Source: Treponema sp.
GTDB lineage: Bacteria; Spirochaetota; Spirochaetia; Treponematales; Breznakiellaceae
DNA length: 33,552 nucleotides
NCBI GenBank assembly: GCA_009787835.1
Contig: WQSN01000031.1
Coordinates: 1-33,552 of the forward strand
Reading direction: 5' to 3'
Part shown: in pieces, positions 1,066 through 25,501 of the stretch
Position numbering within the stretch: the first letter of the stretch is position 1
Layout of the letters: each line of letters opens with the position of its first letter
Program-made: the position numbers and the translations under genes
The notes under the pieces: model-generated
Databases searched by the model: none
The model's input: only the letters and a program-made list of their open reading frames with translations
Told to the model about the DNA's origin: nothing

Positions 1066-4000
1066 CTATTCCCACACAGTCGCTACTCCGCCAACCCACC
1101 GCCAATGCGTATCCGCCGTCCCTGGATGCGTTACTGAATAGTAATAACGATTCGCAGATGTAAGATTTGTATTTAAGGAACCAATTGTTATCCCATTCCA
1201 GGCCGTACTATTAACCCCGCCATAAAAAACCTTGGTTAAGCCTGAACAGACATAGAACGCAGTATTGACAATACTCGTCACACTTGTGGGGATTGTTATG
1301 CTGGTCAAGCCAGTGCAGCCATAAAACGCAGAAGAGCCGATACTCGTCACGCCTGAGGGGATTGTTATACTGGTTAAACCTGAGCAGCCATAAAACGCAG
1401 AAGAGCCGATACTCGTCACGTTTGATGGGATTATACTGTTTTTACAACCGGCTATTAACTCGTTATTTGCAATACGAATAATACAGTTTCCTTCACTTCT
1501 ATATATGGTATTACCGCTTTCTACAGTTATGCTGGTCAAGCCTGAGCAGTCACGGAACGCATTAGAGCCGATATTCGTCACGCTTGAGGGAATTGATATA
1601 CTGGTTAAACCATAATAATTCTCAAAACATTGATTTGCTAATGTCGTTACAGGTAATCCTTCGTACAGGGACGGTATTATCACATCAGGAGCGGTAGCTG
1701 TGCCTTTTGAAACAGAATATGCATTTCCGTTTATCAATGTAAAAGATAGACCTGGTGTAGCTGACATTTGTGTATTCCATACCAGCGGTTTCCCGGCTAC
1801 AAAACGCCAATGAGTATATGATGTGCCGGGATCATTCTCACGATAATAATATATAGTTGATGACGTAAGAGCTGTATTTTCTGTACCTATTACCATATTA
1901 TTCCATTCTGAACTATCATCACCGGTGTAATATACTGAATTTAATTTACTGCAATTATTGAACGCTTCATTGCCTATACTTATAACGCTTGAGGGGATTA
2001 TTATACTGGCTAAACCTGAGCAGCTATAGAACGCAGAATTACCGATACTCGTCACACTTGATGGGATCGTTATACTGGTTAAGCCTGAGCAATAATAGAA
2101 CGCATAAGTACCGATACTCGTCACGCTTGAGGGGATTGTTATACTGGTTAAGCCTGAGCAACCCCAGAACGCAGAACCGCCGATACTCGTCACGCTTGAG
2201 GGAATTATACTGTTTTTACAACCGGCTATTAACTCGTTATTTGCAATACGAATAATACAGTTTCCTTCACTTCTATATATTGTATTACCGCTTTCTACAG
2301 TAATACTGGTCAAGCCTGAGCAACTAATGAACGCATTAGAGCCGATACTCGTCACACTTGAGGGGATTGTTATGCTGGTCAAACCTGAGCAAAAAGAGAA
2401 CGCATTAGAGCCGATACTTATAACGCTTGAGGGGATTATTATACTGGTTAAACCTGAGCATTCCCAGAACGCAGAAGAGCCGATACTCGTCACACTTGAT
2501 GGGATCGTTATACTGGTTAAACCTGAGCATTCCCAGAACGCAGAATTGCCGATACTCGTCACACTTGATGAGATCGTTATACTGGTTAAGCCTGAGCAAC
2601 CCCTGAACGCAGAACCGCCGATACTCGTCACGCTTGAGGGGATTGTTATACTGGTCAAACCTGAGCAGCCAGAGAACGCAGAAGAGCCGATACTCGTCAC
2701 GCTTGAGGGAATTATACTGTTTTTACAACCGGTTATTAACTCGTTATTTGTAATTCGAATAATACAGTTTCCTTCGCTTCTATATATAGTATTACCGCTT
2801 TCTACAGTGAGGCTGATTAAGCCTGAACAGCTAGAGAACGCAGAAGAGCCGATACTCGTCACACTTGAGGGGATTGTTATGTTGGTTAAGCCTGAGCAAT
2901 AACTGAACGCATAATCGCCGATACTCGTCACGCTTGAGGTGATTGTTATACTGGTTAATCCTGAGCAGCCATAGAACGCATTAGAGCCGATACTCGTCAC
3001 ACTTGAGGGGATTGCTAAGCTGGTCATTGATGTATAATTGGCAAATCCTCCTGTATAACCAGAATTATATGTAGCTGATGCTATCTGTGTTACCGGCAGC
3101 CCATTGTAAAAAGCGGGAATTATAACATCGGTGTCAGTTATGCTGCCTCCGGAAACTGAATATGCCGTATTGTTGTTTATAAGCGTAAACTCAAAACCTG
3201 TTGTTGGAGGCTTAAGGGAGGCGTTAAACGCAATATCTATTTCATAAATGCCCGATTGTACGGTTACTGTTTTATTGTCTGCTTCCCAGTTAAAAAGTAA
3301 AAATGTATTGTTTTGTACAAATGCTCTAATAGCCGTTTCCGCCTGTACCTGATTCGCGTAATTACCGGCGTTTTGAATATTTGTTTCTATTACCGCTGTT
3401 TTAACAAATGCAGCGTCTGTCAATGTTTTAAATTCTGTCAAATTACCCGGTATTGAATTTACTGCGCAAAGAGCGTTAAAGCTGATAATAATATTGTTAA
3501 AGTTGCTGTCATTAACTCCGTTAATACCCAACATGGAAAAATGATCTGCTGAAATTCCGGCTTCAGATAATTTCCATGTTTTTTCTGATGCATCCCATGT
3601 TCTTAAAATATATCTTAATAATGCGGCGGGAATGTGCCTGTCTGAAAATACCTCCTCAAAGAAACTATTCATGTTTTTATATATGTGAAGTATATGGCTT
3701 ATAACAGCTTCATCTTCTCCGTTGGATAAAATAAAATCCACGCGGTATTCGCCTGCGTCAAGAGTAACCTCGTTTTCAAGATTTAAGGTTTGTGTTATGT
3801 TATTCTCTATTAATTTAACAGTTTTGTCGTTTAACAATGTAAATGTGTTTGCGCCCGCGTTCCTGCGCCATATTTCCATAACCGCGTTTTTAAAACTGTA
3901 ATTAAAGCTGATATTCCATTTATACTTTCCGCTGCCGTTTTCAATCGGGAAAAGAACAATATCTGCGGGAACAACTGAACCTGAAGCCACAGCTATAGTT

Positions 4001-4407
4001 TCAGTTTTGCTTTTTGCCGCTTCAACTGACTGTTGATTTTCTCCGGCAAGAAAAGCGGTAATCACTAGTTCCCAAGTCCCCGCGGACAGTTCGACAGAGC
4101 CTGAACTGCCGGTCCATGTTATGGAAAAATTACTGTTTCCTGCAGTTTTGGCGGTAAAATCAAGCTTAAACTCAATATAATCATCCATGGAAATATCAGG
4201 CATAATGGTTCTGGCCGATTTCTCTCCGTTTATATAAAGCAATACAGCGCCGTTTCCGTTATCATTAATAATATCAGGCTGCCTGAAAATATCAGGACAA
4301 CCGGAAAAAATAAAAAATGATATTATTGAAATAAGAAAAGAATTTAAAATAAATATTTTTCCCTTCCCTGTTTTCTCATTTATTTTTATTACTGCTTCTC
4401 TTTTCAT
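1066..4407 (-). CDS. BspA-type leucine-rich-repeat surface lipoprotein
   Basis: 1113 residues. The signal peptide ends in a lipobox (FIFSGC, Cys37), so it is a lipoprotein probably carried to the surface. Residues about 40-260 form an N-terminal module (ARTIMPDIS, ELSAGTWELVITA, GSGKYKWNIS, ISHILHIYKNMNSFFE) shared with the lipoprotein at 18983-20464. From about 430 on there are roughly 20 LRR_5/TpLRR repeats of 23 residues, consensus CSGLTSITIPSSVTSIGSSAF. They are interrupted by three copies of an island (SGNTIYRSEGNCIIRI, then GCKNSIIPSS) and by one non-LRR spacer with a second xGxxYTHWRFVAG element; the protein ends with a similar DTHWRWVGG element. BspA-like proteins in Treponema and Tannerella mediate adhesion to host or bacterial surfaces. 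It is the last gene of locus A, 12 bp after the preceding lipoprotein gene, so probably co-transcribed. A small stop-proximal truncation cannot be judged. Confidence 0.92.
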   Translation of the reverse strand: MKREAVIKINEKTGKGKIFILNSFLISIISFFIFSGCPDIFRQPDIINDNGNGAVLLYINGEKSARTIMPDISMDDYIEFKLDFTAKTAGNSNFSITWTGSSGSVELSAGTWELVITAFLAGENQQSVEAAKSKTETIAVASGSVVPADIVLFPIENGSGKYKWNISFNYSFKNAVMEIWRRNAGANTFTLLNDKTVKLIENNITQTLNLENEVTLDAGEYRVDFILSNGEDEAVISHILHIYKNMNSFFEEVFSDRHIPAALLRYILRTWDASEKTWKLSEAGISADHFSMLGINGVNDSNFNNIIISFNALCAVNSIPGNLTEFKTLTDAAFVKTAVIETNIQNAGNYANQVQAETAIRAFVQNNTFLLFNWEADNKTVTVQSGIYEIDIAFNASLKPPTTGFEFTLINNNTAYSVSGGSITDTDVIIPAFYNGLPVTQIASATYNSGYTGGFANYTSMTSLAIPSSVTSIGSNAFYGCSGLTSITITSSVTSIGDYAFSYCSGLTNITIPSSVTSIGSSAFSSCSGLISLTVESGNTIYRSEGNCIIRITNNELITGCKNSIIPSSVTSIGSSAFSGCSGLTSITIPSSVTSIGGSAFRGCSGLTSITISSSVTSIGNSAFWECSGLTSITIPSSVTSIGSSAFWECSGLTSIIIPSSVISIGSNAFSFCSGLTSITIPSSVTSIGSNAFISCSGLTSITVESGNTIYRSEGNCIIRIANNELIAGCKNSIIPSSVTSIGGSAFWGCSGLTSITIPSSVTSIGTYAFYYCSGLTSITIPSSVTSIGNSAFYSCSGLASIIIPSSVISIGNEAFNNCSKLNSVYYTGDDSSEWNNMVIGTENTALTSSTIYYYRENDPGTSYTHWRFVAGKPLVWNTQMSATPGLSFTLINGNAYSVSKGTATAPDVIIPSLYEGLPVTTLANQCFENYYGLTSISIPSSVTNIGSNAFRDCSGLTSITVESGNTIYRSEGNCIIRIANNELIAGCKNSIIPSNVTSIGSSAFYGCSGLTSITIPSGVTSIGSSAFYGCTGLTSITIPTSVTSIVNTAFYVCSGLTKVFYGGVNSTAWNGITIGSLNTNLTSANRYYYSVTHPGTADTHWRWVGGVATVWE
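1284..3015 (-). repeat. 69-bp tandem repeats encoding the LRRs, with three ~100-bp islands
   Basis: On the plus strand the unit reads roughly CCGATACTCGTCACGCTTGA followed by GGGATTGTTATACTGGTTAA and GCCTGAGCA plus a variable stretch; it recurs every 69 bp. Three nearly identical islands (about 1430-1530, 2205-2305 and 2710-2810) share ATTATACTGTTTTTACAACC and TTCTATATAT. Identity at DNA level, including third codon positions, points to recent duplication or gene conversion. Confidence 0.9.
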
Positions 4408-4419
4408 TTAACGCGCTCC

Positions 4420-6828
4420 TTAAGGTTTAACTTCAAATATAACATTCTTGCTGTACATCCTGCCGTTTATTTTAACTTCAGCCATTAATGTGTATGTTCC
4501 TATTTTATTGTATACTGTAGAATTTACAGTCAGTGTTTGTCCGAAACTACCGGTAATACCGCTTGTTATTTGATTTCTGTTTAAATACCATTTAATGCTT
4601 CCGCTGTCATATTGCTGCGGATTGTCTACTGTAATTTGAGCCGATGCCGGTTTACCGGCGCCGCTGTTTAAATAAATTGTGTTTACGGTTATTGATGGAG
4701 TATTAATATCAGAAAAATCCGCAAAGGAAATGCTGAAATTTTCCTGGGCGGTAATATTTACTGTTAATCCTGCCGGTTGTATTAATGTATAGTTATCCTT
4801 GCTGTTTCCTGTAAGCTGTATGTTGGTTGTAACTGCCTTGCTGTTGCCTGCGGCGGCATTTGTGATTGTTCCGTTGCCAAGAGTGAAACCGACATCATCA
4901 CCTGTAATAACGCCTGTAAGATTTCCGCCTGATAGTTCTACTATTGTAGTGCCGTTGTAAAGACGGTTTAATGCGCTAACGCCTGTTATGTTGATTGTTT
5001 TGCGGTTAACTGTCAGCGTTCCGGCTTCAAGCCATGTAACAGCGTTCCAGCCTGTTGCTGCGGTAACATTAAAAGTAACCGCGTATGATCCTGGTGCTGT
5101 CGGATGATCTTTTAAGCCATTATATAAAATTGATATATCACCTGTAGTTTTCCCAAATTTGGGAGCAATCGAAACATTTGTAGTATTGCCGTAAGTTTGC
5201 ATCATATTGCCGATATTAAAATCAGTTGCCGCAGGAGTTTGATTATTTACAATCAACGTAACTGCGTTACTCCTTACAGCGGTGTTCTTGTTTCCTCCGT
5301 CTCCGTTATCTGCTATCGTATTTGTTATTTCAGCAAAATAGTAATATGTTCCCGCTATTCCTGCCGGCGGATTGAATGATGATGATGTTGCTCCTGGGAT
5401 AACAGTACCGCCTGTATTGGAAGCGTTTGTATTACTGTACCATTGATACGATAATGTCCCGCCGTCTATTACACTTGTCGTAACAGTCAAACTGTGTGAT
5501 GTACCAATGGTCACTGTTGCGTTCATGGGCTGGTTTGTTATATTAGGTTCGTGAGCGTCCACTTGTATGTTAACAATGAATGAAACAGCGTTACTCCTTA
5601 TATGTGCGCTCTTGTTTCCACCGTCTCCGTTATCTGTTATCGTGTTTATTATTTCAGCAAAATAGTAGTATGTCCCTGCTGTATTAGCAGGCGGGCTGTA
5701 CGATGATGATACGGCTCCCGTAATGATACTGCCTCCTGTATTTGACTCGCTTGTGTTACTGTACCATTGATACGATAATGTTCCGCCGTCTGTTACGTTT
5801 GCAGTTACGGACAGGCTGCTGCTTCCGCCGAATATCACATTACCGTCTGTTGGCTGGCTTGTAATATTTGGTGTCTGTGCGTTCTCTTTTGTGTTAACAT
5901 TCAGGGAAGCCGCGTTACTCCTTACAGTTGCGCTCTTGTTTCCTCCGTCTCCGTTATCTGTAATTGCATTTGTTATTTCAACAAAATAATGGTATGTTCC
6001 AGATGTTCCTGTCGGCGGATTGTATGATGAAGATGTTGCTCCTGTTATGACGCTGCCGCCTGTATTGGACGCGCTTGTATTGCTGTACCATTGATATGAA
6101 AGCATCCCGTTATCTGTCACGTTTACCGTTACAGACAGGCTATGCGCAGTGTTTATTGTAATTACCGCATCCATTGGCTGGCTTGTAATTATTGGTATTT
6201 GTACATTGATTTTATCGCTTATTATCAGGATACCTGCGATTAATCCGTTTACCGCGTTCCAGCCTGCTGCCTGAGCTACATCAAAGGTTACTATATAAGT
6301 TCCGATTGACGAAGGAAGCGCGGCAGATCCAGCGTAATAAACAGAGATCATACCTGCCGACTTTCCGGTTTTTGGCGTAATCGTTACAGGCACAATGTTT
6401 CCAACCGCCTGAGTCATATTGCTGATATTAAAATCAGTAGCGGCTGGATTTTGATTGTGCAAATTTATGGTTAATGTTCCGCCTGCCAAACCATTAACCG
6501 CCTGCCATTCCGCTGTCCCTGCTACGTTAAATGTTACAGTGTATGTTCCTGTTGCGGAGGGAATCGCGTTAAATCCGTTATACAGAACTGTTATGGCTCC
6601 TGTAGTTTTTCCTTCTCTTGGCGTAATCTCTACCGGTACAATGCTCCCAATTGTCTGTGTCAGATTAATAACATCAAAATCAGATGCTACAGGCGTTAGC
6701 TTCTGCGCTTCCGTGTTGCTTATAACTATATCCCGCAGCTCTTCAATGTCTCCGCCAAGGACACATGAAGCGGAAACAAGGATGGCGCATAACAATATAT
6801 TTCGTATAACTTTTGTAATAATTTTCAT
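4420..6828 (-). CDS. Multidomain Ig/MBG-like surface lipoprotein
   Basis: 802 residues. Lipobox VSASC (Cys22) is followed by VLGGDIEELRD, a motif repeated almost exactly in the lipoprotein at 23558-25501. Domain order: two MBG-like beta domains of about 80 residues (ASDFDVINLTQTIGSIVP; ATDFNISNMTQAVGNIVP), three Ig-like repeats of 108 residues (ITSQPMD, then LSYQWYSNTSASNTGG, then DNGDGGNKSATVRSNA), a third MBG-like domain (ATDFNIGNMMQTYGN), a YDG-like domain (ALNRLYNGTTIVELSGGNL), and a C-terminal beta domain (PASAQITVDNPQQY ending YSKNVIFEVKP) shared with the lipoprotein at 20478-22379. Such stacks of beta domains build stalks on the cell surface; no catalytic motif is seen. It follows the caspase gene by 2 bp, and its AGGGAG ribosome site lies inside that gene's last codons. 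This is the middle gene of the locus A operon. Confidence 0.88.
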   Translation of the reverse strand: MKIITKVIRNILLCAILVSASCVLGGDIEELRDIVISNTEAQKLTPVASDFDVINLTQTIGSIVPVEITPREGKTTGAITVLYNGFNAIPSATGTYTVTFNVAGTAEWQAVNGLAGGTLTINLHNQNPAATDFNISNMTQAVGNIVPVTITPKTGKSAGMISVYYAGSAALPSSIGTYIVTFDVAQAAGWNAVNGLIAGILIISDKINVQIPIITSQPMDAVITINTAHSLSVTVNVTDNGMLSYQWYSNTSASNTGGSVITGATSSSYNPPTGTSGTYHYFVEITNAITDNGDGGNKSATVRSNAASLNVNTKENAQTPNITSQPTDGNVIFGGSSSLSVTANVTDGGTLSYQWYSNTSESNTGGSIITGAVSSSYSPPANTAGTYYYFAEIINTITDNGDGGNKSAHIRSNAVSFIVNIQVDAHEPNITNQPMNATVTIGTSHSLTVTTSVIDGGTLSYQWYSNTNASNTGGTVIPGATSSSFNPPAGIAGTYYYFAEITNTIADNGDGGNKNTAVRSNAVTLIVNNQTPAATDFNIGNMMQTYGNTTNVSIAPKFGKTTGDISILYNGLKDHPTAPGSYAVTFNVTAATGWNAVTWLEAGTLTVNRKTINITGVSALNRLYNGTTIVELSGGNLTGVITGDDVGFTLGNGTITNAAAGNSKAVTTNIQLTGNSKDNYTLIQPAGLTVNITAQENFSISFADFSDINTPSITVNTIYLNSGAGKPASAQITVDNPQQYDSGSIKWYLNRNQITSGITGSFGQTLTVNSTVYNKIGTYTLMAEVKINGRMYSKNVIFEVKP
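5230..6200 (-). repeat. Three 324-bp direct repeats encoding Ig-like domains
   Basis: The string GCGTTACTCCTTA followed by TTGTTTCCTCCGTCTCCGTT recurs at about 5262, 5587 and 5911, a period of about 324 bp (108 codons). The copies differ at scattered positions, mostly silent or conservative, so they are older than the LRR islands. Confidence 0.85.
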
Positions 6829-6830
6829 GT

Positions 6831-8159
6831 TTACTCCCTGTTAAACTGGTATCTGTATCCTAAAGTCAGCGTATTACTGGCAGACGTAAAATCGGTGCGC
6901 AGGGTATAGGAAATCCCAATACCGATGTTAAAATAAAAACCGGCGGTTGCGTTTAAAGTGAAAATATTAAGGGGTAGTTTTCCTTCGGGGAATTCAAATT
7001 CGGAATAACTGTAACTTCCGCCCGCTCCCAAATACCATCTGCCCAGGTTTGCCAACGGCAATGAAAAGGCATAATGGACAAAGGGTGAAACTGAATAATA
7101 GCCCACATCATCAAAACCGCTTAGAAAACCAAAATCTACGCCCAATTCAATGAACGAATTCCTGAAAGGGGATAAAGTTCCGTTTATGTTCGCGACCAAT
7201 ACAGGAGCGGCAAATGCTGTGCCTAAAGACGCGCCTAAGCTCCAGAAGTGTTCAGCCATGTCATACTCCGGTTTTGGCTGCGGGATACGCACAGGCAAAG
7301 AAGGATGAGGATCAATCACTGATGGAGTTAATTGCAGAGCGGCATGCTCTGTTGTTACAGGAGGCGTTATAAAAGCTGCGGCTTCAGGAGAGTATCCAAG
7401 GTATGCGGTTTCAAAGTATCTCACCGAAATTTCCGGGTGCTGCTTTCCACCGCTTTCGCGAAGAACGGCAGATCCTGTCCTGTTAAATACTTCCTGGACA
7501 GTTAATCCGGGGGATTTAATGTTGTTCAGTAATTGTCCTGTAAATAAACCATTGCGTCCCGTACCGTCGTCGGCGATGGAATTGGCGCTTGTCGCGTAGA
7601 CTACAATGCTTCCCACAGGCGCGTTAATCACGGCAAGACCGCGGCTGCCCTGTCCGCTTCGGCCGCGGCCCCAGTTAAATGGATTGTCGCGGCAGGCGTC
7701 CAAAACCATTATATTCAACTCGTTTCCGGCGCTGTTTAAATCATCAAGAGTATTCTGAACCGAAACCGCCCTTGTCCGTAAACCATTTTCCGATGGTATG
7801 TTGGCGTTTACAGGAATTAAATAGTTATCTCCGCCAGCCTGTACACCGTGTCCGGCGTAAAAAAAGAAGCCGTATGTTTTCTCTTCCCTGCCAAGATTTT
7901 TTACAAAGCGTTGAATCGCGTCTTCCATGTCTTCAAGATTGCTGTCCAGCACTTTATCTACATTAAAACCCAAGGAAAGGAGAGCATCAGCCATGTCATT
8001 GGCGTCATTTACAGGGTTTGAAAGAACACTTAAACCGCCGGTATAAGCCCCATTACCGATTATAAGAGCGTATTTACCGGGGAAATCATCCTGCTGTGCA
8101 TTAATACAAAATACAATAATAATAAATAAAATTACAAATAAAGAGATTTTCCCGCTCAT
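6831..8159 (-). CDS. Caspase-like (C14) protease fused to outer-membrane beta-barrel
   Basis: 442 residues. A signal peptide (hydrophobic 7-19, likely cut after CINA21) exports it. Residues 28-255 are a caspase/metacaspase-like fold: KYALIIGNGAY start, catalytic His104 in FFYAGHG and catalytic Cys156 in MVLDACRDNPF. After a proline-rich linker (about 265-300), residues 304-442 are an amphipathic beta region ending in YRYQFNRE. It reads as an 8-strand-type barrel and matches the C-terminus of the protein at 22612-23547 (GASLGTAFAAP versus GASVGSTFYAP; GTLSPFRNSFIELGVDFGF versus GTFSPFDNFFIEAGMDVGF). Caspase-like enzymes cleave after Arg/Lys or Asp; here the domain would act in the periplasm or at the surface. 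It heads locus A, and its start lies 7 bases after a -10 box. The protease fold and active pair are seen; the target is unknown. Confidence 0.88.
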   Translation of the reverse strand: MSGKISLFVILFIIIVFCINAQQDDFPGKYALIIGNGAYTGGLSVLSNPVNDANDMADALLSLGFNVDKVLDSNLEDMEDAIQRFVKNLGREEKTYGFFFYAGHGVQAGGDNYLIPVNANIPSENGLRTRAVSVQNTLDDLNSAGNELNIMVLDACRDNPFNWGRGRSGQGSRGLAVINAPVGSIVVYATSANSIADDGTGRNGLFTGQLLNNIKSPGLTVQEVFNRTGSAVLRESGGKQHPEISVRYFETAYLGYSPEAAAFITPPVTTEHAALQLTPSVIDPHPSLPVRIPQPKPEYDMAEHFWSLGASLGTAFAAPVLVANINGTLSPFRNSFIELGVDFGFLSGFDDVGYYSVSPFVHYAFSLPLANLGRWYLGAGGSYSYSEFEFPEGKLPLNIFTLNATAGFYFNIGIGISYTLRTDFTSASNTLTLGYRYQFNRE

Positions 8160-8166
8160 AGTGTAT

Positions 8167-8196
8167 ATTATACTGCTATAAATGTAATACTGTCAA
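8167..8196 (-). promoter_or_regulatory. Promoter of locus A (predicts leaderless caspase mRNA)
   Basis: On the minus strand TTGACA (8196-8191), an 18-base spacer and TATAAT (8172-8167). Only 7 bases separate the -10 box from the ATG at 8159, so transcription should start at or next to the A of the start codon. No Shine-Dalgarno sequence is possible in that space. Confidence 0.8.
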
Positions 8197-8298
8197 CAAA
8201 AAAACTTCAGGATTTGATAATAAACAATAATTTCTATAGATTTTGAAGGACGGATTTTATTCAGTACGCTATACAATTAACAATAATCAGGGTAACAT

Positions 8299-9249
8299 TT
8301 GGTAAAATTCATGAAAAATAATGAAAAATATTTTTTTATTTCTAAAACACCGGCAATTTTTCTTGTAAATATTATTTTCCTGATATTTTTTATATCATGC
8401 GCTTCCCTTTCTCCCGTCAATTCCAGCAGGGAACATCCTGAACCATTTACGGACATCGAGTCTGTTGAACCGCAGTGGCAGGAATTTGCGGCAAACATCG
8501 GGTATTATCACGGAAAGACATCCAGCCCTCTTCTTGAATTCTGGGCGCTGCGGATAGATTTGGATTCACCCGATACAAATGTTGTAGTAAAGGGCGGAAC
8601 TCCAGCAAAGGACGGCAGCACGCGCAACACAAAGGTGACCAGTTTTGTCCGCAGAAACGGGCTTATTGCAGGTCTTAATGCCGTGCCTTTTGATGTAATT
8701 TCCATGTTTGAAGGACGGCCGGTAAAAAACGAAGGCGTCGTTATTTCAGACGGAGAATTAATTTCGCCTGTTCAGCCGAATTATGACGCGCTGGTTTTTT
8801 ATTCAGACGGCAGTGTACAGATTGTAAGCCAGGCGGAAATTGATGCCGCATCCATTGAAAACATCGAAAACGCCATAGGCGGATTTAACAGTATTTTAAA
8901 AAACGGACAACCGGAAAACAGAACATTAAATCTGCAGCCGCGACACCCCAGAAGCGCCGCGGGCATTTCAGCTAACGGAAAATATCTTTATTTTCTGGTA
9001 ATAGACGGCAGAAGGAAGGGCAGCATGGGAACGACAGAAAAAGAAACCGCCCTGCTACTGCGCGCTTTAGGTTCATGGGATGGAATTAACTTTGACGGCG
9101 GCGGTTCAAGCGCACTTGTTCTCCGCTACAGGAACGGCAGAATAAGGGCGGTTAACACTCCCATTCACGGCGGAATTCACAGACTGGAACGCGCTGTAGC
9201 AGGCTGCATAGGAATCAGACAGGATGCTAGTCCTTCCATGGAAAAATAA
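8299..9249 (+). CDS. Phosphodiester glycosidase (NAGPA/DUF2233) lipoprotein
   Basis: 316 residues from a TTG at 8299, chosen because AGGG lies 6 bases before it; ATG 8311 (312 residues) is the alternative. The signal segment ends in a lipobox FFISCA, so it is a lipoprotein. The body is the NAGPA-type fold: IAGLNAVPFDV, KNEGVVISDGELIS, YDALVFYSDGS, GGFNSILKNG, RHPRSAAGI, LYFLVIDGRR and the family signature INFDGGGSSALVLR near residue 265. Members release N-acetylglucosamine or related sugars from phosphodiester-linked glycoconjugates; bacterial ones are linked to cell-surface glycans. The substrate here is unknown. Its last 23 bases overlap the end of the convergent membrane-protein gene. The start lies near but outside the caspase promoter; no clear own promoter was found in 8197-8298. 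Confidence 0.85.
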   Translation: MVKFMKNNEKYFFISKTPAIFLVNIIFLIFFISCASLSPVNSSREHPEPFTDIESVEPQWQEFAANIGYYHGKTSSPLLEFWALRIDLDSPDTNVVVKGGTPAKDGSTRNTKVTSFVRRNGLIAGLNAVPFDVISMFEGRPVKNEGVVISDGELISPVQPNYDALVFYSDGSVQIVSQAEIDAASIENIENAIGGFNSILKNGQPENRTLNLQPRHPRSAAGISANGKYLYFLVIDGRRKGSMGTTEKETALLLRALGSWDGINFDGGGSSALVLRYRNGRIRAVNTPIHGGIHRLERAVAGCIGIRQDASPSMEK

Positions 9250-10060: not shown

Positions 10061-10067
10061 GAAAAAA

Positions 10068-10096
10068 ATTATAACATTTAAATTAATGTAAGTCGA
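10068..10096 (-). promoter_or_regulatory. Promoter of the YesL-like gene (predicts leaderless mRNA)
   Basis: On the minus strand TCGACT (10096-10091), a 17-base spacer and TATAAT (10073-10068). The ATG at 10060 follows after 7 bases. This geometry matches the caspase promoter and decides the start codon of the gene. Confidence 0.65.
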
Positions 10097-10159
10097 GGAG
10101 CCTGACTGTTGCGATTTTGGATATAACGGAAGTTTCATTTGAAAAATAAAAATATTCCA

Positions 10160-10189
10160 TTGCCCCGTTAAATAATTTTATGATATAAT
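10160..10189 (+). promoter_or_regulatory. Promoter of the DUF4062 operon (predicts leaderless mRNA)
   Basis: TTGCCC (10160-10165), an 18-base spacer and TATAAT (10184-10189). The ATG at 10196 lies 6 bases after the -10 box and no Shine-Dalgarno sequence fits between. It faces away from the promoter at 10068-10096. Confidence 0.7.
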
Positions 10190-17104: not shown

Positions 17105-17122
17105 AAGTAAGCTTGTACGCAA

Positions 17123-18814
17123 TCAATGTACCAGTACTCCTTCCCAGGGAAGTAAAGTGTCTTCGCACTCTGTCCTGCCCAGAGTGGAAACCACAAGCGG
17201 TCTTGTTAACAGATCAACATGTTTTAGCGGCACTTTAACAGTGCGGGATGAAAAATTTAATGCGACAGTATACGTTTTATTTTCATATTTACGCTGGTAG
17301 ATTATAAGGCGGGTATCAGCGTAAACCGGCAGGAACTTACCGTAAATAAGACAATCACTGTTCTTGCGCAATGCGATAAGTGTTTTATAGAAATTTAAAA
17401 TTGAATCCGGAGCGTTTTTTTGCGCGGCGTAATTAATATATTTATAATTACCGTTAACGCCAAGCCAGGGTTTAGCGTTACTGAAACCTGAGTATTCGCT
17501 GTCATCCCATTGCATGGGCGTGCGCGCGTTATCACGCGAACTTGTTTTGATCCACTTCCAGCGCAGAAAGCCGGGGATGCACATTTTTTTTAACAATTTG
17601 TTTAATCCGTGGCTGACAACATCGTCCAGTTCATCAAGGCTTTTAAAATCGAAATTGGTCATGCCGATTTCCTGTCCCTGGTAAATAAACGGAGTGCCGC
17701 GCAGAGTCAGTTCAAAAAGGGCAAGCACTTTCGCGCTCTGCTGCCAGTATTTACCGGGCTTGCTGTCAGCAGGCAGCTTATTGCCAAAGGAGCGATCTTT
17801 TTCCGCAGCGCCGAAATGAGAAACGATTCGAGCCTGGTCGTGATTTTCAAGGTACAGGGCGTTCCAGTCAAGGCCAATCTGCCATTTTGTTATTACTTCC
17901 ATTAATTTGTCAGCGCGGAATTTTTTAGGAATAAACTGGGCAATGCGGCGGTCAATCTCAAGATGATCAAAATAAAAGAGCATATCGAGTTCCCTACGGT
18001 TTTCATCGCAAAGAAGTTTCGCTTCTTTAAGATCGACCATGACAGTTTCACCTACCGTAAAACAATCATATCTGGCAAGCACGTCGCTGTGAATTTCACG
18101 CAATATTTCATGATTTCCTTCCTGCGATTTATAATGTTCAATTCCCCGGACAGCCAGACTGTTTTTGCCGTTTTCCAGGCTTGTCTTGTAAAGAACATTG
18201 ATCACATCGCAGCGAAAACCGGCGGCCCCCTTATCCAGCCAGAAGCGAAGAATATTTTTAACTTCTTCAATTACTTTTGGGTTTTTATAATTCAGATCGG
18301 GCTGTTTTTTGTCAAAAAGATGAAGATAATATTCACCGCTTTTTTCATCGTACTCCCATGCCTTATCCATAAAAAAACCAGTCCAGTTATTTGGAAGTTT
18401 GGCGCGGCCTTGCCTGCGTTTGTTTTTACCTGGTCTCCAGATATAGTAATCGCGGTAAGGACTTGATGGATCGCGGCTTTTCTGGAACCATTCATGCTCA
18501 TCCGATGTATGGTTTATTACCAAATCCATAATAATTTTTATGTCTCTTTTTGCCGCCTCCTTAAAAAGTCTGTCCATGTCGGCCATAGTCCCGAATTTTG
18601 GGTTTATGGAGTAATAATCGCTGATATCGTAACCATTATCCGCGTCAGGAGATTTATACACGGGTGAAAGCCAAATAATCTGCGCCCCAAGGTCCTTAAT
18701 TTCATCCAATCGTGAAATGATTCCCGGAATATCGCCTATTCCGTCACCATTTGAATCCTGAAAACTGCGGGGATATATTTGATAGACAATACTGTCTTTC
18801 CACCATGATTTCAT
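17123..18814 (-). CDS. GH13 alpha-glucosidase (oligo-1,6-glucosidase group)
   Basis: 563 residues, no signal peptide, so a cytoplasmic enzyme that hydrolyses short alpha-glucans or isomalto-oligosaccharides after uptake. It starts WWKDSIVYQIYPRSFQDSNG, with LVINHTSDEH at 98-107, the oligo-1,6-glucosidase hallmark QPDLN at 171-175, nucleophile Asp203 (AAGFRCDVI), acid/base Glu256 (FTVGETVMV) and Asp326 (LENHDQAR). Trehalose-6-phosphate hydrolase is a close relative and cannot be fully excluded, though no trehalose PTS gene is nearby. GAGG precedes the ATG by 5 bases. A plausible promoter sits upstream (TATACT -10 around 18833). A terminator for the gene before it is at 18915-18950, so it is transcribed on its own. 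The sugar-binding protein at the right end of the window may feed the same kind of substrate. Confidence 0.88.
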   Translation of the reverse strand: MKSWWKDSIVYQIYPRSFQDSNGDGIGDIPGIISRLDEIKDLGAQIIWLSPVYKSPDADNGYDISDYYSINPKFGTMADMDRLFKEAAKRDIKIIMDLVINHTSDEHEWFQKSRDPSSPYRDYYIWRPGKNKRRQGRAKLPNNWTGFFMDKAWEYDEKSGEYYLHLFDKKQPDLNYKNPKVIEEVKNILRFWLDKGAAGFRCDVINVLYKTSLENGKNSLAVRGIEHYKSQEGNHEILREIHSDVLARYDCFTVGETVMVDLKEAKLLCDENRRELDMLFYFDHLEIDRRIAQFIPKKFRADKLMEVITKWQIGLDWNALYLENHDQARIVSHFGAAEKDRSFGNKLPADSKPGKYWQQSAKVLALFELTLRGTPFIYQGQEIGMTNFDFKSLDELDDVVSHGLNKLLKKMCIPGFLRWKWIKTSSRDNARTPMQWDDSEYSGFSNAKPWLGVNGNYKYINYAAQKNAPDSILNFYKTLIALRKNSDCLIYGKFLPVYADTRLIIYQRKYENKTYTVALNFSSRTVKVPLKHVDLLTRPLVVSTLGRTECEDTLLPWEGVLVH

Positions 18815-18914
18815 TTTAACCTCAGAGTAAAGTATATAATGTATTTGTAATGAAAGGAAGAGTTTACACCATTAAAATGTTTTTATATTTAATATCAGCG
18901 ATTTTATTATGATA

Positions 18915-18950
18915 AAAAAAATCCATCCATAATTTACATTACAGACGGAC
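18915..18950 (-). terminator. Intrinsic terminator after the 18983-20464 lipoprotein gene
   Basis: Read on the minus strand: a 12-bp stem (arms 18950-18939 and 18934-18923, with three G-T wobble pairs), a 4-base loop and a run of 8 T (18922-18915). It ends the leftward operon of locus B. Confidence 0.8.
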
Positions 18951-18982
18951 TTTATTACTTCTTAATGCCTCTGCTTTAAGTC

Positions 18983-20464
18983 TTAATTATTTAACCTCAA
19001 TTCGATATTATCTACTGCAATTGGTTGAGAACCTACGGAACTATCGTTTCTCCATGTAAATACCAGCCGTTTTGTGGTTCCGGAATTTGACGCTGGAATG
19101 CTTATGGTTGCCTGAGTCCAGTTACTATTCCCTACATAATTAGTTCCAAATGAGCCGGAAGGAGTAGTGCCTGCGCTGATTGTTGTTGATGTATCAACAA
19201 GGTGTACAGTTAAGAAATCGTAACCGCTTTCAGCAGTTCCTCTCCAATAGAAAGTGAGCGTATATGGTGAGCTTGACTGCGGGAATTGCACATCCTTGTA
19301 CATGTGTACAGTACTTGATGATCCATTGTTGTATCCATAAGTTGAACTGTCGCTGGAAATATAAGCAGATCTACTGCCGCCGTAATAAGTACTTGTTCCA
19401 ACATACCATTTATTTGTTTGCGAGCCATTTACCAGGGTAAATGAATTTGTGCTTTCAAAATTTTCACTAAAAATGACGCCTTGAATCCATTTAGCATAAA
19501 GAGTTATACTACCTGTCGGGAAAAATGTCGAACTGGCGTTATAATTTGTTCCTGTACCGGCTGCATTGGTATTCCAGCCGCCAAAGGCATACTCAGTTCT
19601 TGATAATCCGCTTCCACTTGCAAGAGTTACACTGTTTCCCTCCCTCACTGTTTGCGAGGAAGGCTGTGTTCCTGAACCTCCATTCAAATTATAGGAAATA
19701 ATATAATTAGTGGGGCCGAATGTAAAATTATAACCGAAATAACTGTCCAGACTTGGATATATATGCAGATAATCTACCCTGCCTATATTATGTGATACAC
19801 TATTTTCATCAGAGCCGGTAATAAAAAATTCAACTTTATAATAACCTGATTGCAATTCTAAAGGACTATTATTGTTACTTTTACTAACTCGATTGACATC
19901 CCAATTATCATATCCCGTAAAACAATACGTCGATTGATTTTCAGAATCCAATTGAAATTCAGAATCCAATGGAGTAATAATCATATATGCGCCAGTCACA
20001 CCGCTTGGGTAATCAATATTCCAGGTAAAGGTTCCTGTTCCCTCCATATCAACAACTGGCTGCAGTAGTATGGTTTCAGTTGTTGTCTGACCCGGTGTAA
20101 TAACTATTAAATCTCTGCTTCCGCGTACTATAGTATCGTTATTATTATTTTTTCCGGTAATAACTAAACTCCAGGTCCCGGGAGACAATGATACCTGCTT
20201 TGAACCGCTTCCATTCCAGGTTTCTGTTCTTGAATCCTTGAAAGGCGCGGATAATACCAATGTATATGAACTCGCGCTAAGATTTGCATTTATTGGCAGT
20301 ATTGTTCTTCCGGCTCCATCAATACTTATTGTCAAATATCCGTTTTCACCTGTATCAGGCTGTGATTGTTCAACAGGATCTGTACACCCTATTGTTAATG
20401 CCAGAATAGCAAACGCTGCAATAAGAAATGTAATACCATTAAATCTTTTATATTTTTTATTCAT
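18983..20464 (-). CDS. Surface lipoprotein with InlB-type repeat and choice-of-anchor-J-like domain
   Basis: 493 residues from ATG 20464, preceded by AGGAG; the frame is open to 20488 but that part overlaps the upstream gene. Lipobox LTIGC (Cys27). Residues about 30-240 are the 'Y' module shared with the LRR lipoprotein (GRTILPINA, SLSPGTWSLVITG, GTGTFTWNIDY, GYYKVEFFI, DYLHIYPSLDSYFG). Next is one InlB B-repeat/Listeria-Bacteroides repeat (YNLNGGSGTQ to ITLYAKWI). The last 160 residues form a beta-sandwich with EN-FES, YGGSRSAYISS, LTFYWRG and IAVDNIEL, the pattern of choice-of-anchor-J/MAM-like carbohydrate- or peptide-binding domains. No enzyme motif is visible. It is the second gene of the leftward operon of locus B, 13 bp behind its partner, followed by the terminator at 18915-18950. 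Confidence 0.82.
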   Translation of the reverse strand: MNKKYKRFNGITFLIAAFAILALTIGCTDPVEQSQPDTGENGYLTISIDGAGRTILPINANLSASSYTLVLSAPFKDSRTETWNGSGSKQVSLSPGTWSLVITGKNNNNDTIVRGSRDLIVITPGQTTTETILLQPVVDMEGTGTFTWNIDYPSGVTGAYMIITPLDSEFQLDSENQSTYCFTGYDNWDVNRVSKSNNNSPLELQSGYYKVEFFITGSDENSVSHNIGRVDYLHIYPSLDSYFGYNFTFGPTNYIISYNLNGGSGTQPSSQTVREGNSVTLASGSGLSRTEYAFGGWNTNAAGTGTNYNASSTFFPTGSITLYAKWIQGVIFSENFESTNSFTLVNGSQTNKWYVGTSTYYGGSRSAYISSDSSTYGYNNGSSSTVHMYKDVQFPQSSSPYTLTFYWRGTAESGYDFLTVHLVDTSTTISAGTTPSGSFGTNYVGNSNWTQATISIPASNSGTTKRLVFTWRNDSSVGSQPIAVDNIELRLNN

Positions 20465-20477
20465 AATACGACTCCTG

Positions 20478-22379
20478 TTATTCAACATTGAAAATAATGG
20501 TTCTGCTGTATGGAATACCAGCCTTTACTACCATTAAAGTTAAAAAGTGGCTGCCAACTTGATTATAAGCGGTATTAGACGAATTCAGGGTAAATGAAGG
20601 TACAATATTGTTACCTGAACTATTGATAATGGTACTTGAAATATTATCTACCTGCCAGCTTACAGATGAATATTGGCTGGTGTCTTGTAGTGTAATTGTT
20701 GCCGAAGCCGGATTAGAACTGCTGCTAGTGCGATAAATTGTCGGTCCAATAAGATAATATTCATAATAAGAATTGCCTCTATTATCAGATTTTAGTTCAG
20801 AATACCCGGTAACTCCGTTAAAAGTTGCTTCCACATCTGAAATCTGGTTGAAATTTAATGTCAGGCTAACAGTACCATTTTGAACACCTGTAATAATTGG
20901 ATCATCTATTACATGAGTTGGAGGCGTATTTCCTAAATTAACCCGGTAGTAATCTATATCATTATCATGTAAATAACCCATAAATGTGTTGCTTGTTAAA
21001 TTCAATTCTGTAGCGGTGGATTCAACGTTATTACCCGGTTCATTAATAAACATATTTTCACCTAACAACGAATCCCAGTTAGTTGACGGAATTGCGTTAA
21101 TACCCAGTGAATATACAGCTTCCGTTCTGGCTTCTACAGACGCGCCAAGGAATGTAATAATGAAATTATCATTTGACCATGGTAAAGATACAGTATAGAA
21201 GTAATTGCCGTCGTTACCTGGCTCTGTTTTAAAATAGTGGGTTTTATTTCTTGGTGTGCGTATTACCCCCTGAACCTCCTTATCAGACCGGAAAACAAAT
21301 GGTACTGCGATATTGTAAAAACCTATGGATACTGTATCATCCCATGTTTTTGTCCTAAAGGTTTGTGTATCATAACTTACAATACGGATATTTATCAACT
21401 TATTTTTAAACCCTTCGCCATCAGCAAGACGTTTTGAGCGCAATGTCAGTTGAATCTGTCTCTTTTCTCCAGGTGTCATTGTGTCCAGCCTTGCCTGAGT
21501 TTGTCCGGAAACAAGGCTGAAATCGGCCTCATCCCAGGTTATAAAATAACTTGCACCCGTTACATAACCTGTACCAATATTTTCTACTTCTATTGTATAC
21601 GCTACAGGTGAATTATCCGCGATTAGATCATCAATACTTTTGGAGTTATTGCTGTTTGCGAGGCGGATTGATGTCTTAATATTAACTCCTGTAGTAAGCG
21701 GAATAATACCCATGTCCATACCGTTTCCCCATGACGAAGGTAAAGCGATTTTTACATTACTCCAGTTTGTAGCTGTAGGAACTACCTCCAGCGGGTCACC
21801 CGGGATTTGGTTCTCTACTTCAATTTCGCCATTTTCATTAATCTCAACCTCAACCGGCTGTGATAAAGGTTGTTTGGGATTCGTAACCCTTACGCGCATC
21901 GTTTCTTCACCGGCATTACGGCTGAAATTTGTACTGGGATTGGGATTGTCATTGTCAATATATACAACTCTCATATTAAACCCGGCATTGGCAGTCCTTG
22001 ACGCGAATAAAAAATAATCCGTAGGTAATGCCGGTTCCTGCGGTATATTATTTCCCCCTTGTTTAACCCTAATTACCTGATCCGATGTTTTATATAGTGT
22101 TACACTACTGTTGTTCAGTATTTGCGGATTGGGATTATTTTCAGACGTAACTTCTATTGAATTTCCATTTATATACCAGCGTTCTCCGGTGTCCATTCTA
22201 ATCCATTCACCCAGTAATTGAGAGCTATATATAGTATTTTGCGGTGGCGGTGGTGGTGGCGGTGGAAGAACAGTACCAGTACCATCATCATCATCATCAT
22301 CAGTACCTGAACCAGTAGGGCAAGCTGCAAAAATCATTGCAATAATAATGAGCCAAACAAATAACATCTTCTTAAACAT
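20478..22379 (-). CDS. Surface lipoprotein with Asp/Pro linker and shared C-terminal domain
   Basis: 633 residues. Lipobox IFAAC (Cys20), then an unusual linker of six Asp (27-32) and eight Pro (39-46). Residues about 50-130 hold a GEWIRMDTGERWYINGN region that looks like a small lipocalin-like/DUF-type barrel. The middle (about 215-390) is a beta-rich region with CARDB-like phrases (YTIEVENIGTGYVTGASYF, MTPGEKRQIQLTLRS). Residues about 390-500 contain NKTHYFKT and ESTATELN, then DNDIDYYRVN, as in pre-peptidase C-terminal domains. The last 75 residues (ASATITLQDTSQY to SRTIIFNVE) match the C-terminus of the Ig/MBG lipoprotein at 4420-6828. An AAGGAG site precedes the ATG. First gene of the leftward operon of locus B, with its own strong promoter. 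Function not recognised; probably a surface or cell-envelope binding protein. Confidence 0.78.
   Translation of the reverse strand: MFKKMLFVWLIIIAMIFAACPTGSGTDDDDDDGTGTVLPPPPPPPPQNTIYSSQLLGEWIRMDTGERWYINGNSIEVTSENNPNPQILNNSSVTLYKTSDQVIRVKQGGNNIPQEPALPTDYFLFASRTANAGFNMRVVYIDNDNPNPSTNFSRNAGEETMRVRVTNPKQPLSQPVEVEINENGEIEVENQIPGDPLEVVPTATNWSNVKIALPSSWGNGMDMGIIPLTTGVNIKTSIRLANSNNSKSIDDLIADNSPVAYTIEVENIGTGYVTGASYFITWDEADFSLVSGQTQARLDTMTPGEKRQIQLTLRSKRLADGEGFKNKLINIRIVSYDTQTFRTKTWDDTVSIGFYNIAVPFVFRSDKEVQGVIRTPRNKTHYFKTEPGNDGNYFYTVSLPWSNDNFIITFLGASVEARTEAVYSLGINAIPSTNWDSLLGENMFINEPGNNVESTATELNLTSNTFMGYLHDNDIDYYRVNLGNTPPTHVIDDPIITGVQNGTVSLTLNFNQISDVEATFNGVTGYSELKSDNRGNSYYEYYLIGPTIYRTSSSSNPASATITLQDTSQYSSVSWQVDNISSTIINSSGNNIVPSFTLNSSNTAYNQVGSHFLTLMVVKAGIPYSRTIIFNVE
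22242..22301 (-). repeat. Trinucleotide tracts encoding polyproline and polyaspartate
   Basis: Plus-strand GGTGGC/GGT units fill 22242-22265 (eight Pro codons on the minus strand) and six ATC units fill 22284-22301 (six Asp codons). They sit just after the lipid-anchor Cys. Slippage would lengthen or shorten the linker in whole codons. Confidence 0.85.
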
Positions 22380-22466
22380 AACAACTCCTTGATCTTATGT
22401 TAAAATAGTCACTCAATAAAGAGTACCCAAGTGATAAAATAAAGATCGGACAGATCCTTTAGAATC

Positions 22467-22496
22467 ATTATACAGCAAAAATTTAATTTTAGTCAA
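22467..22496 (-). promoter_or_regulatory. Leftward promoter of locus B
   Basis: On the minus strand TTGACT (22496-22491), an 18-base spacer and TATAAT (22472-22467). The leader to the ATG at 22379 is about 80 bases, with a small ACTC/GAGT hairpin and AAGGAG near the start. Confidence 0.75.
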
Positions 22497-22522
22497 GAAT
22501 ATTGTAGAAATTTTATTCAATA

Positions 22523-22551
22523 TTGACAAAATAAAAATTTTTTACTATGAT
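22523..22551 (+). promoter_or_regulatory. Rightward promoter of locus B
   Basis: TTGACA (22523-22528), a 17-base spacer and TATGAT (22546-22551). The -35 boxes of the two divergent promoters are only 26 bases apart, so one regulator could control both operons. The leader to ATG 22612 is about 55 bases and ends in GGAG. Confidence 0.78.
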
Positions 22552-22611
22552 ATTCATATATTTGCTGAATTTTTATTCTTTTTATGAGGTATTTTTTATG
22601 GAGATATTAAT

Positions 22612-23547
22612 ATGAAAAAAGCGCTAATTATTGTAATTTTGTCCATGGTTCCGGCGTACATTTTCTCTCAGACCTTTATTACCTTGAATAAAGCGCTAAG
22701 TGAATGTGCCGCAGAAATTAAAGAACATTTTATCAAGGATTCCAGAGCATTAATTTTTATAGAAAATGAGGCTGTAACGAGAGAACTTTCTTCATTACTG
22801 GTAAGCCAAAGACATCTTGCCATTGTGGAACGGGATGAGAAAGTTCTAAAAGCAATTGAAAGTGAGCAAAATTACCAAATGACCGGCAATGTGAGTGACG
22901 CGACAGCTACCTCCATAGGTAAGCAGCTTGGCGCGCAGTTAATCATTATTGGTTCTATTGAATCAAATGGCGAATTATTCAATATAAATATCAGGGTTGT
23001 CGATATAGAGAAAGCTCAAAGGGTAATGGACAAATGGTGGAATAATGTCAGAATAGAGCCATCCAAAACAGCCCGTTTACACACTGTAGGCGCTTCAGTT
23101 GGTTCTACGTTTTACGCTCCATTCTTAATAGGAACTGTACGCGGAACTTTCTCGCCATTTGACAATTTCTTTATAGAAGCCGGTATGGATGTCGGTTTTT
23201 TTCATGGCAGTAATAACAAGGAAGACAGCGATTATCTAAATTCCTATGGATTAAATATTGACAGTTATTTTTCACTATATCCTTTTATACATCTTAATTT
23301 CTTCCTGCCGTTTAAAAATTCAGGCGGCTTGTATATAGGAGCCGGCGCTGGTTATATGTACTCCAAATACGAGTTTAATGACGGAATCGCAGAAGCCAAT
23401 ATTTTCGCTTTGGATGTGATAGCAGGCGCCAATTTATTTGACTTTTTAGATGTTTCATACACAATGCGGACAGACTTTATGAACTTTTTTAAAGGCATAA
23501 ACCATAAAGTTTCTGTAGGTTATGTTTACAGGTTCAAACAAAAATAG
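22612..23547 (+). CDS. CsgG/FlgT-like domain fused to outer-membrane beta-barrel
   Basis: 311 residues. Signal peptide (hydrophobic 5-17, likely cut at IFS-QT). Residues about 25-150 resemble the CsgG/FlgT/TolB-N group of periplasmic domains: RALIFIENEAVTRELSSLLV, HLAIVERDEKVLKAIESEQN, SIGKQLGAQLIIIGSIESNG, VDIEKAQRV. In the family this domain assembles at the outer membrane for export of curli-like proteins or for flagellar/envelope control. Residues about 165-311 are a barrel matching the C-terminus of the caspase protein at 6831-8159 (GASVGSTFYAP, FIEAGMDVGF, LYIGAGAGYMYSKYEF, SYTMRTDF, YVYRFKQK). GGAG precedes the ATG. It is followed 10 bases later by a lipoprotein, so the pair likely works together at the outer membrane. 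Confidence 0.8.
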   Translation: MKKALIIVILSMVPAYIFSQTFITLNKALSECAAEIKEHFIKDSRALIFIENEAVTRELSSLLVSQRHLAIVERDEKVLKAIESEQNYQMTGNVSDATATSIGKQLGAQLIIIGSIESNGELFNINIRVVDIEKAQRVMDKWWNNVRIEPSKTARLHTVGASVGSTFYAPFLIGTVRGTFSPFDNFFIEAGMDVGFFHGSNNKEDSDYLNSYGLNIDSYFSLYPFIHLNFFLPFKNSGGLYIGAGAGYMYSKYEFNDGIAEANIFALDVIAGANLFDFLDVSYTMRTDFMNFFKGINHKVSVGYVYRFKQK

Positions 23548-23557
23548 GAGAATAAAA

Positions 23558-25501
23558 ATGAACAAAATAAAAAATAATTTATTAAAGACATTAATGATTT
23601 TTTCCGCGGTATTGATATTAACAACATGCGCGTTGGAAGGCAATATTGAAACATTTCGTGATAACGCGGGTTTTGGCAGTGACAGCGAATCCTATTATTA
23701 TAACAGATCCGACAATAAACTTCATCTGCGGGTTAACAGTTTAAAAACAAACTGGAATTCCGGTAATGGTTTAAAGTTATCCGATTTTCGTCCATTAGGT
23801 CTTGAAAATAATAAACGTTATAAGCTAACTGTTACAGGCAGCATAAGCGCGCCTGTAAGCAAACTGAGCGTTATGTTTTGGCGTTATGACAGCAATAACG
23901 CCAGAGAGAATTTAGCGGTATCCTGGCCTGTTAATGAGGAAATCGATTTCAATTCCGGTACATTAAACGCGGTTTTTTACCTGTTAACCAAAAAAGATAT
24001 TGACCTGACAAGCGGTCAGATTTTTATAGATCTTTTCAATAATGTTCCTGTAAATGACGCCGCTATTTTACCCGGAGCGATACGCGCGACAATCAGCAAC
24101 TTTTCATTGGAAGTCACAGAAGCCAGCGGAAATGTAATTAAAAATATGCGCAAAGATATATTACATTCCGATTATTTGTTCCCGGGAGAAGTACATACAT
24201 ATCGTTTTTACGCGCCGCCTGGATTCAATTATGATATTTACCTAATCGACAGTGATCATTATGATATTGCCAGCTCCAGGTTTACTGATTATCTGGCAAA
24301 CAACAGCAGTGAAACACCTGTTAATGCCAGAATAAGAGCAAAAAAATACGGTGAGACGCTCGATTTCATAGGTTCAAGTAATACCGATATAAAATTCAGA
24401 ACAGACGCTTCAAGCACTTCCGCTTCCGCTTATGTTAATACTACTTCCGGTAATGTGGATATTATTATTGAAGGTTTTGATGTTAACTCAACCGGCATTT
24501 ATGAAGTCAGATACTACAGATGGAGCGAAGGAGAATTAAAGCCTGATGCTCCCCTGGGTGTAACCGCGAATGCGACATCCAGCAATAGTATTACCATAAG
24601 CTGGTATGATGTTCCAAACGCCACTAGTTATATTATACAACGCAGAATGATCTCAGCAGATGGTACATCTGTAACGGCTGGCACAGCTACAGGCACATCA
24701 TTTATAGATTCATCATTATTGTCAGATACAACATATTATTATTCAATAGTGTCTCAGAATGACTATGGTACCAGCGATGAATCATTATTGGCCTGGGCAA
24801 AAACAAAAATGCCGGTTCCTGGAATACCGGTAGTATCCGTAGCATCAGAAGCATCAACCAGTATTACAATTAGCTGGTCCCCGATTGAAAAGGCCACTAA
24901 ATACGAAATATTTTACAGACCTATAAATGGTGATTATGGAAGTACTCCGTTACATACTATAACAGGTATTGTTTCCAATCCTATTACATATACTCACAAT
25001 GGGTTGCAGGAAGGTTATAGGTATTGTTATAGGGTAAGAGCCTGTAACGATGATTATAACGGCGCACTATCAAGTGAGGTTGAGGGGCAAACAACTACCG
25101 CAGATGGCTCTTTAAATAACCCTTTCCCGTTAATTGCAAATACATGGGCTAATGGAGCAATTACTCAAGCTATTTATGATAGCGAAGAACATATTTATGG
25201 CAGTGTTTTTTATTCATTTGATGCTGTGCCAGGATCCTTGTATTTTATCTGGTTAAATGATGAATACGAAGGGAATAGTACTAAAACATTGGATGTTCTC
25301 ATTAATGTTTTTTTAGATGAATATAGTTATGAGACTATTATAGGTGAAGGCGATGATTGCTGGGATACTCCAGTTCAAATCAGCGTACCAAGAAACGGGA
25401 AAGTCATTATTGAAGTTTTTGCTTATGATTGGGAAACTATCGAATCCAAAGGTACATTTGCAGTAGCGTATACCATTAATAATGCTATTTCCAGACCATA
25501 A
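23558..25501 (+). CDS. Surface lipoprotein with two fibronectin type III domains
   Basis: 647 residues from ATG 23558, which has AGGAG (overlapping the stop of the previous gene) 7 bases before; the open frame to 23522 is not used. Lipobox LTTC (Cys24), followed by ALEGNIETFRD, nearly the motif after the lipobox of the 4420-6828 protein. Residues about 30-205 are an unassigned beta-rich region. Residues 205-325 look like a pre-peptidase-type (PPC) domain (PGEVHTYRFYAPPGFNYDIY; VDIIIEGFD). Fibronectin III domains follow at about 328-415 (PDAPLGVTANATSSNSITIS) and 417-514 (ASTSITISWSPIEKATKYEI). A second PPC-like domain ends the protein. It is the end of the rightward operon, closed by the hairpin at 25518-25549. 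A binding or adhesive surface role is likely; the ligand is unknown. Confidence 0.85.
   Translation: MNKIKNNLLKTLMIFSAVLILTTCALEGNIETFRDNAGFGSDSESYYYNRSDNKLHLRVNSLKTNWNSGNGLKLSDFRPLGLENNKRYKLTVTGSISAPVSKLSVMFWRYDSNNARENLAVSWPVNEEIDFNSGTLNAVFYLLTKKDIDLTSGQIFIDLFNNVPVNDAAILPGAIRATISNFSLEVTEASGNVIKNMRKDILHSDYLFPGEVHTYRFYAPPGFNYDIYLIDSDHYDIASSRFTDYLANNSSETPVNARIRAKKYGETLDFIGSSNTDIKFRTDASSTSASAYVNTTSGNVDIIIEGFDVNSTGIYEVRYYRWSEGELKPDAPLGVTANATSSNSITISWYDVPNATSYIIQRRMISADGTSVTAGTATGTSFIDSSLLSDTTYYYSIVSQNDYGTSDESLLAWAKTKMPVPGIPVVSVASEASTSITISWSPIEKATKYEIFYRPINGDYGSTPLHTITGIVSNPITYTHNGLQEGYRYCYRVRACNDDYNGALSSEVEGQTTTADGSLNNPFPLIANTWANGAITQAIYDSEEHIYGSVFYSFDAVPGSLYFIWLNDEYEGNSTKTLDVLINVFLDEYSYETIIGEGDDCWDTPVQISVPRNGKVIIEVFAYDWETIESKGTFAVAYTINNAISRP

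Follow-up and report, generated by a model that had tools for sequence, protein, structure and literature searches.

Outer-membrane barrels paired with motif-bearing lipoproteins, and a separable second lipoprotein unit, in a Treponema contig

In a group of Treponema and related genomes, genes for proteins with a C-terminal outer-membrane barrel are followed by genes for lipoproteins that share a short motif at the lipidated cysteine and carry exchangeable bodies. Two such pairs, at loci designated A and B, lie in the stretch analysed here (the window), the 33,552 nucleotides of Treponema sp. contig WQSN01000031.1, which is the whole of contig C31 in a genome (assembly GCA_009787835.1) of 3.08 Mb and 143 contigs with a completeness of 96% and a contamination of 8.4%. 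Sequence comparison suggests, with about an even chance of being right, that each lipoprotein docks through this motif to its own barrel, with interchangeable outer and inner parts. A sequence-only reading of the window had taken loci A and B for one duplicated surface system with exchangeable parts. The idea of conserved outer-membrane modules surrounded by exchangeable parts is well supported; the single duplicated cassette is rejected because the barrel-lipoprotein pair and a second pair of lipoprotein genes, X and Y, occur apart, so that two separate units, rather than one cassette, meet in the window.

The pairing is seen most simply in the window's own genome, where the barrel profile finds four strong copies (A, B, C47 and C29) and two weak ones, and where a lipoprotein is encoded directly after each strong copy. 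The four mature starts are CVLGGDIEELRD (locus A), CALEGNIETFRD (locus B), CTLGGNLETMQEE and CTLGGSVEEILEN, and the motif, which is loose, reads in its fullest form C-x-L-[EDG]-[GD]-[DN]-[IL]-[DE]-x-[LI]-R; a motif was noted before genomes other than the own one were examined. The bodies behind the four starts are largely unlike, with some repeats common to A and C47. A DNA pattern built from the four motifs matches the genome at one more place, C23:6105, but the codons ahead of it make no signal peptide; the reversed pattern, as a control, has no match in the genome. Across the family, 40 barrels occur in 21 of 145 genomes, and a lipoprotein follows the barrel in 37 of the 40 loci by script and at L074 by eye (the lipidated cysteines of L074 and L085 were picked by eye as the second Cys of CSC). 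Unsupervised alignment of 35 of the 37 mature lipoproteins (set A6, without L082, which has the same lipoprotein as L055, and L085, whose signal sequence is unclear) gives the consensus start CxLxG, and simple motif patterns, drawn after most sequences had been seen, match 36 of 45 post-barrel starts versus 3 of 67 other lipoproteins. Another 22 barrel loci, at places not seen before, served as a hold-out; three end at a contig edge, and of the 19 assessable ones 17 continue into a lipoprotein; six of these 17 starts repeat starts among the 45, and the fixed patterns fit nine of the 11 new ones versus 6 of the 67 controls. A stricter family-wide DNA pattern found three post-barrel lipoproteins only, and its total of 27 matches equals the 27 of its reversed control, so that it serves as a specificity check and not as evidence of enrichment. 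The bodies attached to these starts are of LRR, fn3, InlB-repeat, FGE and Lcl_C types. At L092:3-7691, one barrel is followed by four tandem lipoproteins whose first 19 residues, counted from the Cys, are identical; three have FGE domains, and the fetched sequence ends within the fourth.

Barrel and motif also co-vary. Over the 35 pairs of set A6, barrel similarity correlates with similarity over mature residues 1-14 (rho 0.27, p 0.0005, and rho 0.49 in the subset of 26 lipoproteins above 160 amino acids) and not with that of the lipoprotein body (rho -0.14, p 0.97, and 0.01, p 0.45, respectively); for the signal peptide the values are 0.07 (p 0.15) and 0.16 (p 0.017). The signal peptide lies between the two and yet tracks the barrel at most weakly; this speaks for a tie of the barrel to the motif as such, over mere DNA closeness, although linkage could contribute.

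The barrel has the 8-stranded OmpA/OprF-type fold; 38 of the 40 barrels form set A5, which omits L082 and L076. No known barrel family is among the nine Pfam families that match any of 36 of the 40 barrel proteins at E<=0.001 (set A7, without L055, L076, L082 and L085), and none, by name, is among 12 NCBIfam families. Ahead of the barrel stand different domains. Peptidase C14 is found in 10 of the 36 proteins, and a regular expression recovers the His/Cys caspase dyad in nine of the 10 listed, the His being missed in L080; an LpoB-like domain, above the Pfam cut-off and with the LpoB fold, takes this place at locus B. Seven further caspase proteins related to that of locus A are encoded in the own genome (L014, L015, L016, L017, L018, L019 and L020) with no strong barrel match, and the three whose sequences were inspected, L014, L015 and L020, have a C-terminal FGE-like domain (GG[SG]...GFRVVR) in place of the barrel. 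A single protein at L002:8355-10520 has two barrel matches flanking an FGE-like stretch.

The arrangement that we favour would place the 8-stranded barrel in the outer membrane and the domain N-terminal to it, whether caspase, LpoB-like or other, on the periplasmic side, and would have the first dozen or so mature residues of the lipoprotein dock in or at the lumen of the cognate barrel. This would keep the variable ligand-binding body at the outer membrane, most probably on its outer side, and couple it to the domain in the periplasm. Two genes precede the barrel gene on the same strand at seven loci (L051, L063, L068, L091, L092, L094 and L104), namely a HAMP-cyclase gene, with both domains matched in all seven, and a second membrane-protein gene that overlaps the start of the barrel gene; these two could carry the signal inward. 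FecR is matched in the second gene at E<0.001 in L051, L063, L091 and L092, and over the Pfam cut-off in L063 only. Upstream genes vary at other barrel loci; in L052, L061, L079, L096 and L110 the opposite strand carries a gene for a CI/XRE-type regulator upstream of the barrel. It is possible, if rather doubtful, that all this amounts to a spirochaete surface-lipoprotein code, in which the barrel would be a dedicated receptor or gate for matching post-Cys tags, unrelated ligand-binding bodies would be pluggable, four lipoproteins in tandem could even share one barrel, and binding on the outside would switch either the caspase in the periplasm or a cyclase relay in the membrane.

Docking has to be weighed against other explanations of the same pattern. 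The motif may be a signal for surface export or outer-membrane sorting in general, recognised by shared machinery, with the barrel as no more than a co-transcribed neighbour. Its position and acidic residues do resemble the lipoprotein export signal (LES) of Bacteroidota (PMC5080379), its net acidity is slightly higher than that of other lipoproteins (1.6 vs 1.0, p 0.047), and two X lipoproteins without barrels have similar starts; the near limitation of the motif to lipoproteins directly after these barrels, and its co-variation with them, make such a signal unlikely. Alternatively, the barrel gene and the 5' end of the next gene could be a homology arm beside which bodies were swapped in, so that the conserved segment would be a relic of recombination without a docking role. 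This would suit a 5' end that is kept while bodies differ between loci, as well as the identical starts of the L092 tandem copies, but it is quite improbable in that the four own-genome motifs differ in codons while their barrels are 41-77% identical to that of locus A, and in that the motif follows the barrel more closely than does the signal peptide lying between them. A periplasmic position of the lipoprotein bodies, which has a precedent in the many periplasmic lipoproteins of T. pallidum (PMC7521688), likewise has a low probability, for the bodies are of adhesin and lectin types, and the FGE-type variable proteins of diversity-generating retroelements (DGRs) in T. denticola are thought to be surface lipoproteins (PMC4891356).

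Several observations nevertheless weigh against docking as proposed here. Nine of the 45 post-barrel starts escape the simple pattern of the loose motif, and among the 11 new starts several of those that fit are closely related to one another; four of the 11 (L151, L152, L153 and L165) are alike. The conserved segment lies near the barrel gene, so that linkage could add to the correlation, and in the 26 longer lipoproteins the signal peptide, too, correlates weakly with the barrel (0.16). Some barrels have no lipoprotein follower (L150, L170, L091 and the partial barrel of L076), and at L051:570-2027 the motif lipoprotein (CELWDINELR) is inverted and convergent with the barrel gene, possibly by a local inversion. 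Conversely, X lipoproteins with tag-like starts stand without a barrel in the fetched flanks (C37 and C73, starting CIMEPVNIEIF and CLMEPIDLETF; L009:8005-8589 and L010:6858-7955, starting CIMEPVNIEIFLEDE and CLMEPIDLETFLEDE). In the second upstream gene, FecR is not matched at L068 and L094 and is weak at L104 (0.021). Finally, a search of 39 genomes of the same genus did not find the barrel-lipoprotein unit in 21, many of them incomplete.

The barrel occurs in 18 of the 39 genomes of the genus-wide search and in 10 of the 11 high-quality ones, and an even draw across the phylum gave matches in 6 of 392 genomes, one of which (G436, with the two loci L092 and L091) lies outside the family. Carriers among the 19 named loci are metagenome-assembled genomes of Treponema sp. 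or Spirochaetaceae bacterium, plus one Lentimicrobiaceae-filed contig; from their isolate codes we take the genomes to be of termite-gut origin. The barrel-lipoprotein pair of L097 is on a contig filed under Lentimicrobiaceae, by transfer or misbinning. Behind the barrel of L091 come a tRNA-Gln and an integrase; a recombinase-driven lipoprotein switch was rejected, since the tRNA-Gln intervenes, and the integrase therefore looks like part of a tRNA-inserted element.

Locus A lies wholly on the minus strand. Its barrel gene (6831..8159) encodes a signal peptide, a caspase domain (~7422-8075; Pfam Peptidase_C14 2.1e-36, with His104 and Cys156 present) and the barrel (6834-7265, by homology to that of locus B). 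The post-barrel lipoprotein, which starts 2 bp after the barrel gene, is here X itself (4420..6828) and consists of the motif (codons 6743..6765), YDG/Ig-type repeats (Pfam YDG, Ig_3) and, last, the shared X C-terminal domain (4423-4704). Y (1066..4407) has the shared N-terminal module (3622-4305) followed by BspA-type LRR_5 repeats (Pfam LRR_5 2.1e-133). A lipoprotein-like gene with an NAGPA phosphodiester glycosidase domain (window:8299-9249) is divergent from the locus A barrel gene. At locus B, in contrast, the post-barrel lipoprotein is a different protein, F, and X-Y is divergent from the pair. The plus-strand barrel gene (22612..23547) joins the LpoB-like domain (~22678-23055, just above the Pfam cut-off) to the 8-strand OmpA/OprF-type barrel (23062-23544), and F (23522..25501, plus strand), whose likely start is an internal ATG at 23558, carries the motif (codons 23627..23649) before an fn3-containing body (Pfam fn3). 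On the minus strand are X (20478..22379), with its shared C-terminal domain at 20481-20765, and Y (18983..20488, likely start 20464), with the N-terminal module (19709-20392, by structure model) and an InlB-type repeat (Pfam Flg_new 2.1e-15). The divergent region between X and the barrel gene (22380..22611) contains back-to-back promoter-like sites at 22496-22467 (minus) and 22523-22551 (plus), both 11/12 to consensus; a scan of 22300-22700 gave five sites versus 2.8 expected (standard deviation 1.5), and the sites are not evidence of function.

Pairwise comparison of the two loci bears out the shared modules that had been read from the sequence, with 38% identity for the barrel (E 8e-31), 27% for the Y N-terminal module (1e-16), 37% for the X C-terminal domain (2e-8) and E 0.001 for a short stretch around the lipobox. 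The swapped domains, as named by Pfam, are Peptidase_C14 versus LpoB in the barrel proteins and LRR_5 versus Flg_new in Y. What separates the units is their occurrence elsewhere, for X-Y adjoins two of the four strong own-genome barrels, those of A and B, and five of seven X-Y pairs have no barrel in the fetched flanks. Each unit on its own keeps its neighbours rather than being scattered, and Y comes after X for all seven X genes in the fetched loci. The relative G043, at L063, repeats the layout of locus A, with a barrel, a motif lipoprotein ending in the X domain, and Y one gene further. X-Y forms a second unit, which has become linked to the barrel unit at A and B. The Y N-terminal module is weakly fimbrillin-like and has an invariant R-T-x-x-P (R29, T30 and P33 constant in 14 rows); in its structure model, stretches 27-31 and 33-36 have a predicted local distance difference test score (pLDDT) below 50 after a strand at 18-25. 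It thereby shows the type V pilin trait of a conserved Arg in the loop after the first strand; there is no sequence match to a solved fimbrillin or a Pfam family, and a PDB sequence search gave nothing credible. A gingipain-like role of the barrel-borne caspase on Y proteins is a weak candidate because locus A alone of ten caspase-barrel loci has the Y module in its fetched flanks.

The conserved first residues with a swapped body suggest an unrecognised lock-and-key for cell-surface display or sensing, and the genetic tie between a barrel and a lipoprotein tag offers, in this one lineage, a concrete and testable candidate for the placement of spirochaete surface lipoproteins. The fusion of a caspase to an outer-membrane barrel would also couple outside binding to periplasmic proteolysis in an unusual way. 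No description of the pair was found in the literature searched, subscription papers and preprints being outside its reach. Among the closest known systems are the Bacteroidales type V pilins or fimbrillins (Mfa1-3, FimA) and the Slam barrels, whose genes often stand beside those of their cargo. In Slam or type XI secretion, too, a barrel protein serves surface lipoproteins (PMC9090332). Here, however, the barrel is 8-stranded and OmpA-type, with no Pfam match to DUF560/Slam among the 36 proteins at E<=0.001, and recognition would be via the N-terminal segment of the lipoprotein. According to a review, Slam homologues were not found in Borrelia, and there may be a spirochaete system still to be discovered (PMC7857515); an LptD-type route in Borrelia is disputed (PMC10353723). 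Treponema DGR variable lipoproteins of the TvpA type share the FGE (C-type-lectin-fold) domain, and the excerpted text of PMC4891356 mentions no barrel partner for them. The DGR reverse transcriptase (PF00078) was matched in two of seven genomes (G043 and G076) and not in the own genome (G000), template repeats not having been searched for, so that a DGR in the own genome is unsupported. In E. coli, the N-terminal part of RcsF is complexed with the outer-membrane barrels OmpA, OmpC and OmpF and signals inward (PMC9907809, PMC4942254), but the RcsF C-terminal domain stays periplasmic, whereas here the bodies look extracellular, the pair is co-encoded and the barrel carries its own effector domain. 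The LES, too, is short, acidic and close to the lipidated Cys, and it marks surface lipoproteins, but it is general and reads K-(D/E)2 or Q-A-(D/E)2 (PMC5080379), whereas the motif described here, C-x-L-[EDG]-[GD].., is barrel-linked, and neither the consensus of the 35 mature lipoproteins nor the 45 starts inspected by eye conform to the LES. Thus barrel type, tag and fused effector domains set the pair apart from Slam and its cargo, from RcsF and its barrels, and from the LES.
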